Shown here one piece after another: positions 1 to 8,457 of a stretch of DNA of 8,457 nt; positions within the stretch are counted from its first letter, which is position 1; every line of letters starts with the position of its first letter. Origin of the DNA: an uncultured Beijerinckiaceae bacterium (lineage in GTDB: Bacteria; Pseudomonadota; Alphaproteobacteria; Rhizobiales; Beijerinckiaceae); assembly GCA_937863205.1 (NCBI GenBank), contig CALMGA010000568.1, positions 1 through 8,457 on the forward strand, given 5' to 3'. Below the pieces are notes generated by a model, which did not search any database, was not told where the DNA came from, and saw only the letters and a list, made by a program, of their open reading frames with translations. The translations under genes and the position numbers were made by a program.

Positions 1-425
1 GCCGGGGATGCCGAGCGCACGAAGCTCACGCCAGAGCTGCATGGCGTTCTCGCAGCCCGCGCCGAGGCGGACATGCAGGTGGTCAAGGTAGGGATCGAGG
101 ATGCTCCGCTCGGGCCCGTGCAGGCCATGGCGCGGAAAGCGCTCGGCAAAGGCGTACTTGCGCACGGTGGCGCGGGCGAGACCGGTCTCGCGATTGATCT
201 GGCGCAGCGACTGCCCTGCCGCGCGACGGCGCCGGACATCATGGTAGAGCGCCTCCCATCGCCCAACGGCAGCCGCCCGGGCGAGCGCCTCGGCCGGCGC
301 GCGTGGGTAGGCCTTGGTGCGCCGGGTCCCTGCTGGCCGCACGGCAACCGGCGGCAGCTGCTTGAGGCGCGGATGAACGCGGGCGAGCCAGCGCTCGACC
401 ATCTGCCGCGCGTTGAGCAGGAGAT

Positions 426-466: not shown

Positions 467-500
467 GAACCGGACGGGACGATCTCTCGTCATCCGGCTC
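467..500 (-). ncRNA. Group II intron domain V (catalytic hairpin)
   Basis: This 34-base hairpin holds the catalytic core of the ribozyme. Reading from 500 down, the lower stem GAGCCGGA pairs with TCCGGTTC (8 bp, one G-U), followed by a T-G wobble and a two-base CC bulge on the 3' side. The upper stem GACGA/TCGTC is closed by a GAGA (GNRA-type) tetraloop. The AGC catalytic triad is at the second to fourth bases. Length, bulge and tetraloop all match the domain V consensus. The maturase stop codon overlaps its first two bases. Confidence 0.95.
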
Positions 501-2220
501 AAGCCTCCGCCGCCTGCTTCACCGTCCGCGCATGGTGCGCCTTGTGGCACCATCGGTGAACCAGCTTCAGGTTGCTGATCCCGTCCGTCCCGCCGCGATG
601 ACGCGGGATGTCGTGGTGCGTCTCGACAAAGGTCATGTCCTCGTCGGGGTCGAACCAAACGCCGCACATCGCACACCGATAGTCCTGCTGCCGAAGCAGT
701 GCCGTTCGCTTGCGAGACCGCATCGCCTCGTCCAGCCGTCGGCGCCGCCGCGCCTCCCAGTACGCCTGGTCGTCGGGGTTGAGCGGACTGCGCTTTCCCT
801 GGACCTTGGCGTGCCGGATGATCGCCACCTCGTCGTGCCGTGCGAGCTTGGCTTTGCCGTCCACGAAGTTCCACCCGTGGTCGAAGTACTTCGACCGGAC
901 CCACGCCGCCGACTTGGTCGGGTGGCGGCGCTTGGCCCATCGCCACAGCTTGGCGACGATGTGGTGGTCCGCCGTGTGGAACGCGTGCTTCGACGCCCCG
1001 TGCCGGTAGTAGGCGGCCCAGCCCCGGATCAGCGGCGCCAACGCCGCGATGATCTGGCTCGGGCCGGCCTGACGGTGCTGGCGCAGGTAGTCCCCGATGG
1101 CGCGGAGGTGCCGCACCACCTTGGCCTTCTGCGGCCGCGTCAGAACCGTGCTCCGGAAGCGTCGCACGGTGAAGCCCAGGAAGTCGATCCCGTCGTCAAC
1201 GTGAACGATCCGGGTCTTCGCCTCGCTCAGGTGCAGCCCGCGCTTGCCAAGGAAGGTGACGAGCGCAGGGACGACATGGGTCAGCAGGACGTCTCGCGTG
1301 GGTGCCGTCACCACCAGGTCGTCGGCATAGCGGATCAGGCTGACGCCGCGGTTTGCGCCGCGGCGCAGGCTCGGGCGGACGTGCCGGCCCCGAACGTCCT
1401 CGGCCCCGAAGAGCCGTTCCATGCCGTCAAGCGCGATGTTGGCCAGCAGCGGCGACAGGGGACCGCCCTGCGGCGTCCCCGCCGTCGCCGCCGACCACGC
1501 GCCCAACTCCACGGCGCCGGCTTTGAGCCATCGCCGGATGGTGGTGGTGAACGCGGGCAGCCTCGCCAGCAACGGGTCGTGCCCGATGTTGTCGAAGCAG
1601 CCGGCGATGTCCGCGTCGAGCAGCCAGCCGCTGGCGCCGGCCGGAGCCAGCGTCGCGTGCAGGGCCACGATCGCGTCCATCGTGCCCCGTCCGGGTCGGA
1701 ACCCGTAGCTGTTGGTCTCGAAGCGCGGTTCCCATTCGGGTTCCAGCGCCAACTTCACCAGCATCTGCAGGGCCCGGTCCCGGATCGTCGGGATGCCCAG
1801 GGGCCGCCGCCGGCCGTCCGGCTTCGGGATGTGAACCCGCCGCACCGGCTGCGGATGGTCGTCCCTCAGGCTCAGGCCGTCGTCGGCCAACCTCATCCGG
1901 CTCTCGGGCGTCTTGCACACCACGCCGTCGATGCCGGGGGTCTTGCGGCCCGCGTTCTGCTGGGTGACCCTGCGAACCGCGAGCCGTTTTGCGGATGTCG
2001 AGCGGACCAGGAGCTTTTGCAGGCTCTTCACCTGCCGACCCTTCCCGGCCGCCGCAGCACGGTAGATCCGTCCTTGCAGTCGCTTCACGGCCGCTTCCGT
2101 CGTGGCCCAATCGATCTCGGGCCACGTCGTTGGCGTCCGTCCACCGGTCAATTCGGCTTGCACCGTCCAACGTCTCCGGCAGTTCCAAGCGCCCCAAGGC
2201 TTCTCAACCGTTGAGACCAT
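499..2220 (-). CDS. ltrA: Group II intron-encoded reverse transcriptase/maturase with HNH endonuclease
   Basis: This 573-residue protein helps its intron RNA fold and splice, then copies it into DNA at new sites. The N-terminal RT0-type region (about 38-100) includes A-K-R-L-A-V-R-R-V-T-Q and the P-G-I-D-G motif. The RT fingers and palm carry I-P-K-P-D-G-R-R-R-P-L-G-I-P (131-144), the first catalytic Asp in D-A-D-I-x-G-C-F-D (D204), T-P-Q-G-G-P-L-S-P (249-257) and the active-site Y-A-D-D (298-301). The maturase X domain covers about 365-450 (R-G-W-A-A-Y-Y-R). The C-terminal HNH nuclease has C516-x2-C519, H535-H536-D-I-P, G-G-T-D-x-x-x-N-L and C558-H559. The ATG at 2220 is chosen because homologues start M-V-x-T-V-E-K-P. 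The frame stays open upstream to 2718, but that part is intron RNA domains I-III. There is no clear Shine-Dalgarno. The stop codon TGA (501-499) overlaps the first bases of domain V. The ORF is intact with all catalytic residues present. The symbol ltrA is a generic family name. Confidence 0.95.
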   Translation of the reverse strand: MVSTVEKPWGAWNCRRRWTVQAELTGGRTPTTWPEIDWATTEAAVKRLQGRIYRAAAAGKGRQVKSLQKLLVRSTSAKRLAVRRVTQQNAGRKTPGIDGVVCKTPESRMRLADDGLSLRDDHPQPVRRVHIPKPDGRRRPLGIPTIRDRALQMLVKLALEPEWEPRFETNSYGFRPGRGTMDAIVALHATLAPAGASGWLLDADIAGCFDNIGHDPLLARLPAFTTTIRRWLKAGAVELGAWSAATAGTPQGGPLSPLLANIALDGMERLFGAEDVRGRHVRPSLRRGANRGVSLIRYADDLVVTAPTRDVLLTHVVPALVTFLGKRGLHLSEAKTRIVHVDDGIDFLGFTVRRFRSTVLTRPQKAKVVRHLRAIGDYLRQHRQAGPSQIIAALAPLIRGWAAYYRHGASKHAFHTADHHIVAKLWRWAKRRHPTKSAAWVRSKYFDHGWNFVDGKAKLARHDEVAIIRHAKVQGKRSPLNPDDQAYWEARRRRRLDEAMRSRKRTALLRQQDYRCAMCGVWFDPDEDMTFVETHHDIPRHRGGTDGISNLKLVHRWCHKAHHARTVKQAAEA

Positions 2221-2456
2221 GGCGGAAGTCTGCGCCCTTTCGGGCCGGGTATCTCCTCGTCGCCGAGGCCCTGTCCGCCCCGTTACAGGGCGGCCTTCGC
2301 TTGCTCCGCCGTTCCTTATACCCCCTCCGTCGTGCCCTTCCTTGCGGTCGGGAGACCGCCTCACGGCGGGGCGGGTGGGGCTTACCCTGTTGTCCGAAGG
2401 GGAGAAGCGGATGGGGAGGCTGCGCCCTATGGTCCGGCGGGTGCTGGTGCCACTGT

Positions 2457-2477
2457 CGTCGGTGCTGGCAACCGACG
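2457..2477 (-). ncRNA. EBS1 hairpin of the group II intron
   Basis: A 7-bp stem (CGTCGGT/ACCGACG) displays the loop TGCCAGC, about 304-309 bases into the intron. The GCCAGC in the loop (2469 to 2464) is a perfect complement of the last six bases of the 5' exon, GCTGGC (2778 to 2773, IBS1). This is the expected exon-binding site 1 arrangement in domain I. It independently supports the 5' splice site at 2773/2772. Confidence 0.85.
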
Positions 2478-2536
2478 ATCCGACCCGCGTGCCGTTTTGG
2501 CGCCGGCCTGTCAGCACCTTTGGCCGGTTGCCGATG

Positions 2537-2542
2537 ACGGAC
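2537..2542 (-). ncRNA. Candidate EBS2 of the group II intron
   Basis: GTCCGT on the minus strand (intron bases 231-236) pairs with exon bases -13 to -8, GCGGAC (2785 to 2780), by five Watson-Crick pairs and one G-U. It lies about 70 bases upstream of EBS1, a normal domain I spacing. Six bases can match by chance, so this is less certain than EBS1. No full domain I fold was made. Confidence 0.6.
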
Positions 2543-3459
2543 CTTGACGACGGGCGTTCACTTGCGTTCAGCCTTCCATCCTCTGCTGGGCCGCCTCCGG
2601 GGTGGTGCTTCCAGATTGAGGCCGTTGTTCCCGAAGCTTCGCACGTCGGATTGCTCCTTCGCACGTCCGGGTAGCAGCACTTGAGTGGACAAGGTTCCTC
2701 CACGGGACACTCCTCCATCGAACCTTGCGGGTCACCGGGACGGTGTCGGTCCCGATCACCCTCAGGTCACACGCCAGCGGTCCGCGACCTGCACGGCATC
2801 TGGCGCGCCCAATGCGGTACCGCGCCCGTACTCGGTCGAGCGGTCGCGTGGACGACCTCCACCTGCGGCTCGCGGCGGAGCCAGGCGGCCAACGTCATGG
2901 CGGAGCGGTCCGGCAACAGGTCGACGGGGCGGTGTCGTTCGAGGTCGACCAGGATGGTGCCGTAGCTCCGGCCCTTGCGCAGCGCCCAGTCGTCGACGCC
3001 CACGACGTGCGGCCTGCGTCGGCGCGGCAGCGGCACGCCTCGGATCGTGCGCAGCATGGTGGTGGCGCTCGCCGGCATGGCGAGATGCGACAGCAGGCGT
3101 GCGGCGGGCTGGCCGCCGAGCGCGAGGCCGGCTTGGGCATGAGCCTCGGCAAGGCGGCGGGTGCGCTGCGCGTGACGGCCGAGCAAACGCGGGAAGCGCT
3201 CGGCAAAGGTGCGGCGCGGGCAGCCGGGATGGCCGCAGAAGAAGCGGCGCACCCTCAGGTCCAGCCGGACGACTTGGCCGCTGACCGGCAGGTCGGCAGC
3301 CCGTCGTCGGTAGCGCGCGTGCACCGCGGTGCTAACGGTCCGGCAGTCAGGGCAGCGGGCGTGGTCGCGCCGACCCTCGCCGCTGACGATGAGACCATCA
3401 GGACCATCACGCGCGACGCGAAGCAGGCGACAACCGGGGAGAAGACAGAGCGGGCTCAT

Positions 3460-3741: not shown

Positions 3742-6700
3742 TTGTCCCGCATCTTTCTGTCCTATTCGAGCAGCAACGACCTTGAAGCCGTGGCGCTGCG
3801 CGACTGGCTGGCGGGGGAGGGCTGGGACGACGTGTTCCTCGACTTCGACCCGAACCGCGGCATTGTCGCGGGGCAGCGCTGGGAGCGCCGGCTCACCGAG
3901 GCGGCGAGTCGCTGCGAGGCGGTGGTGTTCCTGCTGTCGGCGCACTGGCTGGCGTCGGGCTGGTGCCTCAAGGAGTACACCACGGCGCGCCGGCTCAACA
4001 AGAAGCTGTTCGCCGTGCTGGTCGATCCGGCGACCACGATGAAGGACCTGCCTCCCGAGCTGACCGACACGTGGCAGGTCACCGATCTGGCGGGCGGCCG
4101 CGATATGGTCACGTTCCGCGCCGTTCGGCCCGGCACGCAGGAGGAACGCGACGTCGCATTCAACCGTGACGGGCTGACCCGATTGAAGCGCGGGCTGCAG
4201 AAGGCTGGCCTTGATGCGCGCTTCTTCGCCTGGCCACCCGCGGCTGATTCGGGGCGGGCGCCCTATCGCGGGCTGAAGCCGCTGGAGGCGGAGGACGCCG
4301 GCATCTTCTTCGGCCGCGACGCGCCCATCGTGGAGGCCGTCGACCGGCTGCACGGGCTTGGCACCGGCGCCCCGCCGCGGCTGCTGGTGGTCCTGGGCGC
4401 GTCGGGAGCCGGCAAGTCCTCGTTCCTGCGCGCCGGGCTGCTGCCGCGGCTGGCGCGCGACGACACGCATTTCGTGGTGCTGCCCCCGATCCGGCCGGAG
4501 CGGGCGGCGCTGACCGGCGAGACGGGGCTGCTGCGCACCCTGGAACTGGCCTGCCCCGGCCGCAAGGCCGCCGAGATCGGAACGGCAGTCGAGGCCGGCG
4601 CGGCGGGGCTGCGTTCTCTGCTGGCCGAGCTGGTCGGTGCCACTTTCCGGCGCACCCTGGCCGAGGCCGGCACGGTCAGGCCGCCAGCGGTAATGGTCGC
4701 AATCGACCAGGCCGAGGAGCTGTTCCGCGCCGAGGGCGCCGCGGAAGCGCAGCAGCTCCTCGAGCTCGTGCGCGAGTTGACGAGCGGGGACGATCCCGTT
4801 GCCGTGATCGTGGTCTTCGCGATCCGCTCCGACAGCTATGACGCGCTGGAGCACGCCAAGCCGCTGGAAGGGCTGCGCCAGGAAGCAATCCCGCTGCTGC
4901 CGATGCCGCGCGGTGCCTACAAGGAAGTGATCGAGGGGCCAGCGCTGCGCGTCACGGAGGCCGGCGGCAAGCTAGCGGTCGAGCCCCAGCTCACCGAGCG
5001 GCTGCTGGAGGACGTGCAAAAGGGCGGGGGCAGCGACGCCCTGCCGCTTCTCGCCTTCACCCTGGAGCAACTCCACCGCGAGCACGGGGGAAACGGTGTT
5101 CTGAAGCTGGCGGACTACGAGGCTGGCGGTGGCGTCGGGGGTGCCATCGAGGCCGCGGTGGTGCGCGCCTTTGCCCGCGCCGACGCCGACCCGCGCATCC
5201 CGCGCGAGCGCGCCGCCCGCGAGGCACTGCTGCGGCGCGGGCTGATCCCCTGGCTCGCCGGCATCGATCCCGAAACGCGGAGCCCGCGGCGCGACATCGC
5301 CCGGCTCGCCAACATCCCGGCCGAGGCTGCGCCATTGATCGAGCTGCTGGTCGAGGAGCGCCTGCTCTCGACGGACGTGCGGCGCGCGCGCGACCCGGGC
5401 ACCGGGGCCGAGGCGCAGGTTCGCACCATCGAACCGACACACGAAGCGCTGCTGCGGCAATGGGGTCTGCTGGAGGGCTGGCTGGCCGCCGACTTCGGCC
5501 TGCTGGCGACGCTGGAGGGCGTGCAGCGTGGGGCGCGTGACTGGGACGCCAACGGGCGCGACGAGGCGTGGCTGGCGCACGGGGGCGGACGTCTCGCTGA
5601 GGCGCAGGGCCTCGACGCGCGTCCAGACATCGCCGGCAAGCTTGACGCGACGGACCGCGCCTACATCGCCGCCTGCCGCGCGCGCGAGGACGCCGCCCAT
5701 ATCGAGGTCGAGCAGCGTCGCCGGGAGCGCGAGGCGGAGCAGGAGCGGCGTGTCACCGACGCCCAGGCCCTCACGGCGGCGACGCGGCGCACGGCGCAGC
5801 GCACCCGCATCGGCCTCGTCGCCGCCCTCGTGCTCGCCGTCGCCACCGCCGGCTTCGGCCTGTTCGCCAAGGCGCAAAAGACACGCGCGGACCAGAAAAC
5901 GGTCGAAGCGGAAGCGCAGCGCGACGCGGCAGGACGGGCGGAGACCTCGGCCAAGCAGCAGACGACCCTGGCCCAGGCTGCCAAGAAGGAGGCGGACCAG
6001 CGCGCCGGGCTTCTCGCATCCGACGTCGCCCAATCCTACATTGCAGCCGGCGACCTTGATGGCGCAGCCTTGCTGCTGATCCAGGCCTCGCAGGCGTTTG
6101 ACGACGCCAACGCTCCCGACAAGCTGCGCATCGCGCTGTCGCAGCTCGTCGACCGCCAAGCGAAGCAGCGCATTATGGCGATCCCGGAGGGGTCCGACGT
6201 CATCGACACGGATGAGGCCACCTTCATCAAGAACGACATAACCGGGGCCTTGCTCGCCCTCGACGACGCCGGCCTTCGGACCTTGATCGCGTCTTCCGAG
6301 TCACACGGCCCCATCGTCGCGGTCCGCCGCGTCGCGGACGGCTCCTACGTGATCGCAAGGGGGAACGGCACCCTGGAGGCGCTTGCCAAGGACGGCGGCG
6401 CGCCGAGGCAGCTCGTTGACTTCCCCGCTGTGCCCGACGGGCCTGACCGGCAGGACACGTGGAGCATCTCACCTGAGGGACTGGCAATGCGGGCCGACGT
6501 CGACAAAAGCGGCGGCGATCAGATTGTTGACCTGTTCGACACGGCATCTGGCGCCTTCGCCCGACATAAGACGACCCTTTCCCATCCGGAAGTCTCGATT
6601 CTGGGCAGGAAGGTTTACCTTCACGACGAGGAGGATTATTTCCTGATCGCCGTGAAGGGTCGCGAGCTGACCCTCAACGAGGCGCACCTCAGCGACGAGC

Positions 6701-7761
6701 AGCGGGAAGCCCTCCGCTTCGCCGATTGCCTTGCCAAGATGCCGGACGGAGCGCGAGCGGCCGCGACGAAGTACCTGGGGGAACAGCAGGAAAGCAATCC
6801 AAGCAACAGGTTTTCGTGCCGCGGCGCAGGTCGCTACGGTGTCGTGACCTCTCTCGGCTATACGAGCAGCGGCGTTGAGCGCGAGGACCAGATCTTCAAT
6901 GCTGACGGCAAGGGGCAGTCCCTCGACGAACGCCTGAAGATGTCGCCCGGCAACAGCACGAAGTCCTTCGCGATCGACGGGCGCAACGATCAGATTGCGG
7001 GCCTCCGTGACCGGGTTATCACCATTGCCTCGGAGAAGCCGAGCGACGATCCGTACATGGATCACGTCGACCCCGCCCCCCTGAAGGCGCGGACCCTGCC
7101 CGATGCGATCCGGTTTCTACCGACCGGCGAACTGGCGGTCGTCGAAGCTAGGGCGGGACGCGTGACGTTTCATCAGGTGCTGCCGGTGAGCACGCCCGTC
7201 CACGAGATCCTGGCCAAATACCTATCGCGTTCGGATCACGGCCAGCCGGCACAGTTCGGCGGCTGCTTTGGCGGCTATGCGTACCAGTTCCAGCCGGGTC
7301 CATGGACGCTCCAGGATGGACGGACGATCGCTTTTTCCGATTATGGCGCCGATCCGTCCGCCAACGTCAGGAAGGTCGACATCGTCGTCCGCGACAAGAC
7401 ACGCAAGGTTTTGAAGGCGCTGCAGGTATCCGCACGGTGCCTTGCGCTGTCCCACGACTTTGAGACCTTGGTGACGGCGGACGACCGGTCGCTTTCGGTT
7501 CACACCGGCTTCCTCGACAGCGATGGCCTCGGCAAGGCGGCAGGAGTGGCTGTTCCGGTCCCAGACCTCAGTGCCATCGCCTTCACCGCGGATCACGGGC
7601 GCTTCGTCACCGCCAACGAGAGTGAGGTGGCCACGCTTTGGAAACCCGACGCGTCTGGCGGAAGCTGGACGGGTTCGGCCTTGTACGTTGCCGACTCAGT
7701 AATCGTCCACGCCGAGACGGATCCATCGGGAACACGTCTCCTCATAATTCGGCAAGAGTAG
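3742..7761 (+). CDS. TIR - nSTAND1 NTPase - transmembrane - WD40-like protein (putative defence/cell-death sensor)
   Basis: This 1339-residue protein is predicted to sense a trigger, oligomerise using NTP, and act through its TIR domain, probably by cleaving NAD+. Role and substrate come from family knowledge. TIR (1-165): S-R-I-F-L-S-Y-S-S, and S-G-W-C-L-K-E with E78 where TIR NADases have the catalytic Glu. nSTAND1 NTPase (172-585): Y-R-G-L-K-P-L...F-F-G-R-D, Walker A G-A-S-G-A-G-K-S (219-226), Walker B V-A-I-D-Q-A-E-E-L-F (319-328), the I-R-S-D-S-Y-D-A-L motif (361-369) and T-H-E-A-L-L-R-Q-W (566-574). A charged coiled coil (about 645-690) precedes one hydrophobic helix (690-709), then a second helical stretch (711-756) and a degenerate beta-propeller (about 810 to the end). 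Its clearest WD40-like blade is L-S-A-I-A-F-T-A-D-H-G-R-F-V-T-A-N...L-W-K-P-D (1276-1302). TTG is the only usable start: an in-frame TAA lies at 3709 and no ATG or GTG intervenes. The Shine-Dalgarno is poor (GGA at 3731). The frame ends at TAG, but the fold seems to continue in 7762-8028. Confidence 0.92.
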   Translation: MSRIFLSYSSSNDLEAVALRDWLAGEGWDDVFLDFDPNRGIVAGQRWERRLTEAASRCEAVVFLLSAHWLASGWCLKEYTTARRLNKKLFAVLVDPATTMKDLPPELTDTWQVTDLAGGRDMVTFRAVRPGTQEERDVAFNRDGLTRLKRGLQKAGLDARFFAWPPAADSGRAPYRGLKPLEAEDAGIFFGRDAPIVEAVDRLHGLGTGAPPRLLVVLGASGAGKSSFLRAGLLPRLARDDTHFVVLPPIRPERAALTGETGLLRTLELACPGRKAAEIGTAVEAGAAGLRSLLAELVGATFRRTLAEAGTVRPPAVMVAIDQAEELFRAEGAAEAQQLLELVRELTSGDDPVAVIVVFAIRSDSYDALEHAKPLEGLRQEAIPLLPMPRGAYKEVIEGPALRVTEAGGKLAVEPQLTERLLEDVQKGGGSDALPLLAFTLEQLHREHGGNGVLKLADYEAGGGVGGAIEAAVVRAFARADADPRIPRERAAREALLRRGLIPWLAGIDPETRSPRRDIARLANIPAEAAPLIELLVEERLLSTDVRRARDPGTGAEAQVRTIEPTHEALLRQWGLLEGWLAADFGLLATLEGVQRGARDWDANGRDEAWLAHGGGRLAEAQGLDARPDIAGKLDATDRAYIAACRAREDAAHIEVEQRRREREAEQERRVTDAQALTAATRRTAQRTRIGLVAALVLAVATAGFGLFAKAQKTRADQKTVEAEAQRDAAGRAETSAKQQTTLAQAAKKEADQRAGLLASDVAQSYIAAGDLDGAALLLIQASQAFDDANAPDKLRIALSQLVDRQAKQRIMAIPEGSDVIDTDEATFIKNDITGALLALDDAGLRTLIASSESHGPIVAVRRVADGSYVIARGNGTLEALAKDGGAPRQLVDFPAVPDGPDRQDTWSISPEGLAMRADVDKSGGDQIVDLFDTASGAFARHKTTLSHPEVSILGRKVYLHDEEDYFLIAVKGRELTLNEAHLSDEQREALRFADCLAKMPDGARAAATKYLGEQQESNPSNRFSCRGAGRYGVVTSLGYTSSGVEREDQIFNADGKGQSLDERLKMSPGNSTKSFAIDGRNDQIAGLRDRVITIASEKPSDDPYMDHVDPAPLKARTLPDAIRFLPTGELAVVEARAGRVTFHQVLPVSTPVHEILAKYLSRSDHGQPAQFGGCFGGYAYQFQPGPWTLQDGRTIAFSDYGADPSANVRKVDIVVRDKTRKVLKALQVSARCLALSHDFETLVTADDRSLSVHTGFLDSDGLGKAAGVAVPVPDLSAIAFTADHGRFVTANESEVATLWKPDASGGSWTGSALYVADSVIVHAETDPSGTRLLIIRQE

Positions 7762-8028
7762 ATGGATTGGTTTCACGGTTATCTTTACTCGATCTCGGCC
7801 GGTCAGACTTGGTATGACTTTGGAACTTACCAGAGATACCTTCATGCATACTTCACCTCTGAGGGGCGGGTCGAGATCACACATGAGGAAGGCGTGGCCG
7901 ACAGATATGGACTGCTGCCCCTCACGGAGCTGGACCGGCTGGCGAAGGAGAAGCTGTCTCCCAGTTGCCGGTGGGGCGAGGGAGCGCCCCTCACCGACTC
8001 ACCCTGCTGGCCGCAAGCGGTTCGCTGA
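7762..8028 (+). CDS. 88-codon in-frame continuation of the TIR-nSTAND1 protein after a TAG stop
   Basis: The ATG directly follows the TAG of the TIR gene and is in the same reading frame. The translation starts M-D-W-F-H-G-Y-L-Y-S and contains the propeller-like strand G-R-V-E-I-T-H-E-E-G, then L-T-E-L-D-R-L-A-K-E-K-L-S-P-S-C. That last stretch resembles the C-terminal helix ending many nSTAND-WD40 proteins (L-x-x-L-A-x-x-x-L-x-x-x-C). The preferred reading is that this is the true C-terminus of the upstream protein, separated by a nonsense codon. The alternatives are a coupled small gene restarted at TAGATG (a weak AAGAG lies upstream at 7752-7756) or stop-codon readthrough. After residue 66 the sequence (R-W-G-E-G-A-P-L...) looks non-native, so the original 3' end may be lost as well. 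It is more AT-rich than the NTPase region. Confidence 0.55.
   Translation: MDWFHGYLYSISAGQTWYDFGTYQRYLHAYFTSEGRVEITHEEGVADRYGLLPLTELDRLAKEKLSPSCRWGEGAPLTDSPCWPQAVR
7973..7990. repeat. Short GC-rich inverted repeat near the end of the split TIR gene
   Basis: GGGGCG (7973-7978) and CGCCCC (7985-7990) are perfect inverted copies around AGGGAG. The hairpin lies just after the last recognisable protein helix, where the translation stops looking native. It has no T-run, so a classical terminator is not supported. It may mark the boundary between the gene and unrelated sequence. Confidence 0.35.
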
Positions 8029-8319
8029 TCCCGTGGCGGTCCGAGCCGTACTCGCTCACGGGGTGCAACTCGCCCGCTCACGTGCCGCAAGGTGCCTCGG
8101 GTCTTCCGACCCAAACCCGCGAAGTCGGGGCATGGAAGTGGATCGACATCATCGACAACTGAAGGACAGGGCTCGAAAGGTTCGCATGATGGTCGATGCG
8201 CCGGTGACCTCGCCGCCGCCGGCCATGAGATGAGCGAGAGCCGCTCGAAGCAGGGCATGCCTCCTTGGCGCGCCTTCCAGCGACGTCATCCGACCTTGCC
8301 AGGACGCGAAAGGTTATCC
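8029..8319. other. Non-coding or degenerate gap before the last gene
   Basis: No recognisable gene lies in these 291 bases. A small inverted repeat, GGGTC/GACCC around TTCC (8099-8112), has no T-run. A 33-codon ORF (8132-8233, M-E-V-D-R-H-H-R-Q-L-K-D) follows a GGGG at 8127-8130 but has no recognised motif. The same sequence is open in several frames, as usual at this GC content. The gap argues that the last gene may have its own promoter, although no convincing -35/-10 pair is seen. Confidence 0.4.
8309..8313 (+). promoter_or_regulatory. Shine-Dalgarno for the right-edge gene
   Basis: AAAGG at 8309-8313 is followed by six bases (TTATCC) and then ATG at 8320. Spacing and sequence fit a ribosome binding site, and it is the best one in the right part of the window. 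It fixes the start of the truncated gene. Confidence 0.65.
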
Positions 8320-8457
8320 ATGGACGGCAGGCCGCCATCGCCGGCCTTGGCCTTCCGCGTGGGCGTCACCGGCGCGCGCGACCTCGACGGCCGGCCCGAG
8401 GCGGTGCGGGCGGCGATCCGACGAGAGGTCGAGGCGGCGCTCGGCGCCGTGCGGGAC
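8320..8457 (+). CDS. N-terminus of a possible SLOG/Rossmann-type nucleotide-binding protein, cut by right edge
   Basis: Only the first 46 codons are in the window. The translation reads M-D-G-R-P-P-S-P-A-L, then A-F-R-V-G-V-T-G-A-R-D-L-D-G-R (11-25), and then an Ala/Arg-rich helix (26-45). A hydrophobic strand leading into G-V-T-G-x-R, followed by a long helix, is the opening of Rossmann-like SLOG and related proteins, which often read G-V-T-G-H-R. Here Ala replaces the His. Members of that fold bind nucleotides or NAD-derived ligands, and some are found in defence loci with TIR enzymes. The start is set by a good Shine-Dalgarno, and codon use is typical of a real high-GC gene. The family is a guess from a short fragment, but that it is a coding region is fairly secure. 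Confidence 0.7.
   Translation, partial: MDGRPPSPALAFRVGVTGARDLDGRPEAVRAAIRREVEAALGAVRD

Follow-up and report, generated by a model that had tools for sequence, protein, structure and literature searches.

STAND proteins of bacterial immunity such as Avs are usually regarded as cytosolic sensors. The closest described relatives of the gene presented here are the nSTAND1 nucleoside triphosphatases (NTPases) of conflict systems, which are combined with TIR, protease or FGE domains and can display the same succession of a TIR N-terminus, an nSTAND1 NTPase and an exchangeable C-terminal sensor, with some of the FGE sensors being diversified by retroelements (PMC8195603; PMC10907252). We have analyzed a stretch of 8,457 nucleotides, termed the window, which comprises positions 1 to 8,457 of contig CALMGA010000568.1 from an uncultured Beijerinckiaceae bacterium (GCA_937863205.1) and which contains a TIR-nSTAND1 gene at 3742-7761 on the forward strand. 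This gene is best read as a disrupted version of a transmembrane TIR-STAND receptor and, with slightly better than even confidence, as one derived from a single-pass membrane immune receptor with its sensor outside and its TIR and NTPase domains inside. Its family appears to be a variant of the known TIR-nSTAND1 conflict receptors, which differs in the C-terminus, a propeller sensor without a Pfam name, and for which we propose a helix at the junction between NTPase and sensor and an outside location of the latter. No description of a TIR-nSTAND1 protein that spans the membrane and exposes a propeller outside was recognized in the titles and the beginnings of abstracts of the open-licence literature. 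The parts of the gene are arranged as follows, where A2 refers to an alignment of 37 rows containing the window protein and 36 others:

3742-7761 (+): truncated receptor open reading frame (ORF) of 1339 residues with a TTG start, which matches the N-termini of relatives, and a TAG stop
3751-4098 (+): TIR domain, residues 4-119 (Pfam TIR_2, E 1.2e-14), with the SPARTA TIR as nearest fold
3973-3975 (+): E78, predicted catalytic glutamate of the TIR domain, invariant in A2
4261-5565 (+): nSTAND1 NTPase, residues 174-608 (Pfam E 7.3e-67)
4396-4419 (+): Walker A, residues 219-226, with A223 nearly invariant and the other seven residues invariant in A2
4705-4719 (+): Walker B region, residues 322-326 (D322, E325, E326), conserved in A2
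5809-5865 (+): predicted membrane helix, residues 690-708, preceded by basic residues; strongest hydrophobic stretch of the protein (mean Kyte-Doolittle value 2.37)
5890-6162 (+): predicted helices linking the membrane helix to the propellers, residues 717-807, from a structure model whose start is partly of low confidence
6166-7758 (+): remaining part of the predicted tandem double beta-propeller sensor, residues 809-1339, holding four of six conserved cysteines
7759-7761 (+): in-frame TAG stop within the second propeller
7762-8025 (+): sensor remainder of 88 residues in the same frame, severed by the stop and carrying the last conserved cysteine pair

With 2071 matching proteins at E <= 0.001 among 7996 scored candidates, the ORF is not a product of chance. 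The initial annotation had overlooked the stop at 7759-7761, beyond which the frame runs on for 88 residues, so that the sensor domain is present in truncated form. TIR-nSTAND1 relatives reaching the same ending comprise 1371-1475 residues and close with a motif resembling LSPECR...SPCWP, and an ending of this type is found in the window directly past the TAG and in frame with it. The 88-residue tail is matched in BLAST by 14 of 119 listed relatives. In alignment A1, which contains the window protein and 24 relatives, 23 of latter extend 86-92 residues beyond the column of the stop, indicating that no frame shift is involved, and the exception, P0060, ends earlier. The stop coincides with residue 681 of a 769-residue model of the C-terminus, where a strand of the second propeller terminates. 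Since it removes the last conserved pair of cysteines and part of this propeller, the window copy is probably inactive or devoid of its sensor. The record of the window protein represents two contigs, which renders a plain sequencing error less likely, though still conceivable.

The N-terminal half bears out the initial assignment of a TIR effector with a retained E78 and of a full P-loop NTPase with Walker A at residues 219-226 and a Walker B containing D322 and E325-E326. The respective scores of 55.2 bits for TIR_2 and 227.1 bits for nSTAND1 compare to Pfam cut-offs of 28 and 27.1. E78 occupies the position of the catalytic glutamate in the WCxxE motif of TIR NADases and coincides with the glutamate of the plant TIR 3jrn and, in SpbK chain 9phb_G, with residue 216. 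Both fold comparison and a TIR-only profile identify NADase TIRs of defence proteins as the nearest structures, the profile being used in place of a search of PDB sequences with A2, which was overrun by WD40 proteins from other C-termini. SPARTA was not among the 45 matches of the profile search of the PDB, and its link to the window TIR is one of fold comparison. Both SPARTA (TIR-APAZ/Ago) and SpbK share the TIR fold and the position of the catalytic glutamate (PMC10474274; PMC12847820), but contain other sensors and no STAND NTPase. The model of the NTPase (residues 169-578) resembles ORC, NLR and Apaf-1 folds and also CED-4, plant NLRs and Avs3. In PADLOC and NCBIfam, the window protein has only matches that are weak or below the cut-off, including four weak PADLOC families at E <= 0.1, none of them Avs.

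The hydrophobic stretch at residues 690-708 is in accord with the initially noted membrane helix between NTPase and sensor. Contrary to the initial view of a single internal anchor at this place as unusual, an equivalent helix, defined by a mean hydropathy of at least 1.6 over 19 residues, is found at the junction in 116 of 125 family proteins including that of the window. The junction was located in 125 of 129 proteins, with P0122, P0125, P0126 and P0128, whose linker was not located, left out of the counts and their helices examined separately. Within the 116 proteins, the net charge is higher before than after the helix in 107 and lower in one, and the number of lysines plus arginines is higher in 99, equal in nine and lower in eight. 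In the window protein, four such residues are found on either side, with a net charge of +4 before and +2 after the helix. This charge bias favours an orientation with the N-terminus inside and the C-terminus outside, and supports a location of the sensor outside the inner membrane for the family. The initial annotation had offered a choice between opposite sides of the membrane for TIR/NTPase and sensor and a buried helix; the charges and the cysteine pattern described below favour the former.

The C-terminal approximately 600 residues define a separate sensor family without Pfam name and with the predicted fold of a tandem double beta-propeller. The propeller sensor that had been proposed as WD40 finds its counterpart in the two predicted propellers, but not in Pfam, where no WD40 repeat is detected in the window protein at E <= 0.1. 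The approximately 700 residues following the helix contain exactly six cysteines in 22 of the 25 rows of A1, if the window row is read through its stop. P0006 has retained four, with C516 and C574 (A1 numbering) both lost, whereas the four of P0060 reflect its missing tail and P0122, a protein with a Sel1 insert, contains eight, two beyond the six. Among the 24 relatives, cysteines in unconserved columns amount to 29 in 14,026 residues before the helix vs none in 17,442 residues after it (Fisher p 6.5e-11), in a test that ignores shared descent and by construction leaves out columns unique to the P0122 insert. In WD40-type relatives chosen by the first cysteine of a tail motif, a second cysteine follows 23-27 residues later in 26 of 26 cases. 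From the one joint loss and the order of the residues, we infer that the sensor cysteines may pair into up to three disulfides.

Several observations weigh against an outside sensor, and against our reading in general. The C-terminal model obtains low TM-scores in Foldseek (0.15-0.26 by query, among the matches listed). TPR-type relatives contain zero, one or two cysteines after the helix and several of the WD40 type contain three, and the argument from cysteines is consequently strong for the sensor family of the window and weaker for others. Two conserved cysteines are also present in the TIR half, and conservation by itself is thus insufficient to place the sensor outside. Moreover, the eight of 116 proteins mentioned above carry more lysines and arginines after the helix, and all neighbourhoods examined belong to relatives with C-termini other than the sensor of the window. 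Finally, in Apaf-1, the nearest structural analogue, the propellers fold back on the NTPase, which an outside sensor could not do. The main alternative, which we consider rather unlikely, is an all-cytoplasmic or merely tethered protein, with a helix that is buried or rests on the membrane and propellers that fold back on the NTPase until a cytosolic phage product binds. Such a protein would account for the ranking of Apaf-1 and Dark with the best structures that Foldseek retrieves for the C-terminal model, for the likeness of the NTPase to Apaf-1, CED-4, plant NLRs and Avs3, and for the odd cysteine numbers of TPR-type relatives. It is less easily reconciled with the pronounced hydropathy of the junction in 116 of 125 proteins and its charge bias, or with a sensor that lacks unconserved cysteines and has in one case lost a pair of conserved ones. 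Apaf-1 and Dark likewise combine a STAND NTPase with two propellers, but have no membrane helix, a CARD in place of the TIR domain and propellers that are cytosolic.

Judged from sequence comparison, the sensor has been exchanged between effector modules. The C-termini attached to the TIR-NTPase-helix module include WD40, TPR, Sel1 and FGE, and the sensor type of the window is also joined to a protease-NTPase or to a TIR domain without NTPase. Compared with the 36 others in A2, the TIR-NTPase half of the window is closest (76%) to that of P0002, whose listed domains include WD40, and both group together at 100% in a tree of 71 of the 123 usable N-terminal halves. This tree contains 20 halves with the module and the same sensor and every second of the others (51), with P0109, which has a partial sensor match, and rows with other N-termini left out. 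On its branches, the sensor label requires four changes, at least three of which are forced by strong branches. A single clade of the 20 same-sensor halves, a group named before the tree, was rejected (log-likelihood lower by 127; approximately unbiased test, p 0.002). P0122 and P0128 are TIR-helix-sensor proteins without any NTPase, and in P0122 Sel1 repeats are inserted inside the sensor. The N-terminus of P0125 looks by eye like DUF4062, with no Pfam match at 0.01, and this protein may represent a second NADase type on the sensor family of the window. A 2026 preprint describes DUF4062 as an NADase of TIR-like type, and the Swarozyc/DUF4062 NADases place the NADase domain beside a STAND NTPase and WD40 in eukaryotic members; they differ in not being TIR_2, and no membrane helix is mentioned in the passages on them (PMC13174449).

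One search gave 21 same-sensor proteins, its query counted among them. In searches of genomes for the sensor, P0126 found a match in one of 385 from the class, only over residues 12-189, and the 17 matches of P0113 in the order did not extend beyond its residue 747. The sensor of the window is accordingly rare in the genomes searched. Three plasmid records matched P0126 only within residues 11-150, outside the sensor, phage records yielded two distant matches in the NTPase region, and no relative was confirmed in IMG/VR viral contigs by pattern scans of limited reach.

A ligand-sensing role of the part beyond the helix is supported by one close relative, whose C-terminus appears to be targeted by a retroelement. 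In genome G520 (locus L024), a reverse transcriptase at 5826-6923 (-) is accompanied by an intergenic repeat at 4027-4152 and two near copies, one at 4342-4467 at the end of a TIR-FGE protein and the other at 8137-8262, which spans roughly residues 956-997 in a TIR-nSTAND1-helix-FGE protein of 1002 residues. The latter protein has its helix at residues 661-679 and eight cysteines from residue 701 onward. If the repeat at 4027 is regarded as the template, 10 of 11 and 13 of 14 mismatches are located at its adenines, whereas they are spread if either other copy is taken as template. The arrangement at 4027-8262 looks like a diversity-generating retroelement. Retroelement-diversified FGE sensors linked to STAND proteins are known, and one STAND (NACHT) protein was predicted to be periplasmic in the respective study (PMC10907252).

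The search with P0113 at E <= 1e-60 yielded 17 locations, distributed over 13 of the 397 genomes from the order, and the surroundings of 16 of these locations were examined (L001, L022-L036). Neighbours were scanned for families at L001, L022, L024 and L027, with genes picked by eye in the last three, and the translations of the other 12 loci, with L029 covered in part, were assessed by eye. Genes of defence or conflict systems were confirmed next to the four relatives that were scanned. L001 contains a ThsB-ThsA pair at 7934-9336 (-), a Thoeris system with a TM-macro ThsA, which is divergent from the TIR-nSTAND1 relative and located downstream of an integrase gene; no ThsA partner is found in the window up to the contig end at 8457. 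The neighbours comprise a cytosine methylase and an Mrr-helicase at L022, a reverse transcriptase, part of HsdR, a CHAT protein and a TIR-FGE protein at L024 and IetS, a patatin (phospholipase) effector and TPR-S at L027. The remaining 12 loci looked largely metabolic on inspection by eye, and a further nSTAND-like protein adjoins L023. On plasmids, TIR, CHAT, protease or restriction genes are annotated nearby in both loci inspected out of 75 matching records. A plasmid of Rhizobium leguminosarum (L038:1-19770) encodes, one after another, three proteins annotated with a TIR domain and one with a CHAT domain. The 12 loci without a confirmed defence gene (only the other four being scanned) would suit a receptor family that serves a purpose other than phage immunity, such as envelope-stress cell death or regulation, as would an outside sensor, which would meet changes of the envelope first; in light of the defence neighbours at the four scanned loci, the diversified C-terminus of a relative and the origin of the nearest TIR structures from defence proteins, we regard this as unlikely. 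That the shortened form is functional, with the stop being suppressed, programmed or an assembly error and the gene in effect intact, is very unlikely. In its favour, the in-frame remainder has retained the two cysteines of the tail and the ending typical of the family, as would be expected of a recent or spurious stop. Set against this are 23 of 24 aligned relatives without a stop at this place, a protein record covering two contigs and a stop position within a propeller strand.

Collectively, the conserved motifs, the defence-type TIR fold, the charge bias, the cysteines, the module swaps, the retroelement and the defence neighbours favour the single-pass receptor with an outside sensor. Its domains, motifs, stop codon, patterns of cysteines and charges and module exchange are read from the sequence, and its propeller fold is predicted. 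In intact relatives, the TIR and nSTAND1 domains would reside in the cytoplasm, with one helix crossing the inner membrane and a double beta-propeller with up to three disulfides facing the periplasm. An outside ligand or a disturbance of the envelope would alter the propellers, upon which the NTPases would assemble and bring the TIR domains together, and the clustered TIR domains would split NAD+ by means of E78, causing the infected cell to stop growing. We infer orientation, disulfides, oligomerization, NAD+ loss and phage as trigger, with the ligand, the loss of NAD+ and phage protection being suggested by the known functions of the families. The interpretation as a candidate anti-phage sensor in the initial annotation is supported in part, and the window copy is broken.

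The proposed topology resembles that of Toll-like receptors, which are likewise single-pass proteins with a TIR domain inside and a ligand domain outside, but differ in the opposite direction of the chain and in leucine-rich repeats instead of propellers, and in the window family an NTPase is usually placed between. We do not claim common descent of the two architectures. Tentatively, and with somewhat less than even confidence, we propose that bacteria have their own Toll-like receptors, with a cytoplasmic TIR domain with or without STAND NTPase, one helix and exchangeable periplasmic ectodomains (disulfide-bonded double propellers, WD40 or lectin-like FGE), diversified by a retroelement in at least one genome. 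If true, this would constitute a bacterial parallel to Toll receptors, whose outside sensor could detect infection at adsorption or DNA entry and would preclude a fold-back of the Apaf-1 type, and a diversified ectodomain would allow the surveillance of the cell envelope to evolve. The topology lends itself to direct testing through the six-cysteine pattern and the short members composed of TIR, helix and sensor.

In the window, the receptor gene adjoins an ISL3 transposase and precedes a short downstream ORF. The latter starts at 8320-8457 (+), comprises 46 residues with a VGVTGARDL motif, which we take to be reminiscent of SLOG-type ligand-binding proteins, and is cut by the contig end. It has no match in Pfam, plasmids or proteins and, in a small ORF set of the examined loci, bears a weak resemblance to a protein of 691 residues encoded next to the L027 relative (37.5% across 40 residues, E 0.001); as this likeness is its sole link, we do not claim a partner gene. 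The transposase at 2767-3459 (-) (NF033550, 192 bits) is seemingly split by a group II intron, with Rfam matches at 426-502 and 2589-2694 and an RT-maturase-HNH ORF at 499-2718 (-). An ORF at 1-402 (-) may be the remaining part of the transposase, with trial joins that are open in frame at a junction that is not unique. DNA matches in the plasmid collection are found in Azospirillum and Methylobacterium records only and are confined to these mobile elements at 5-2797.

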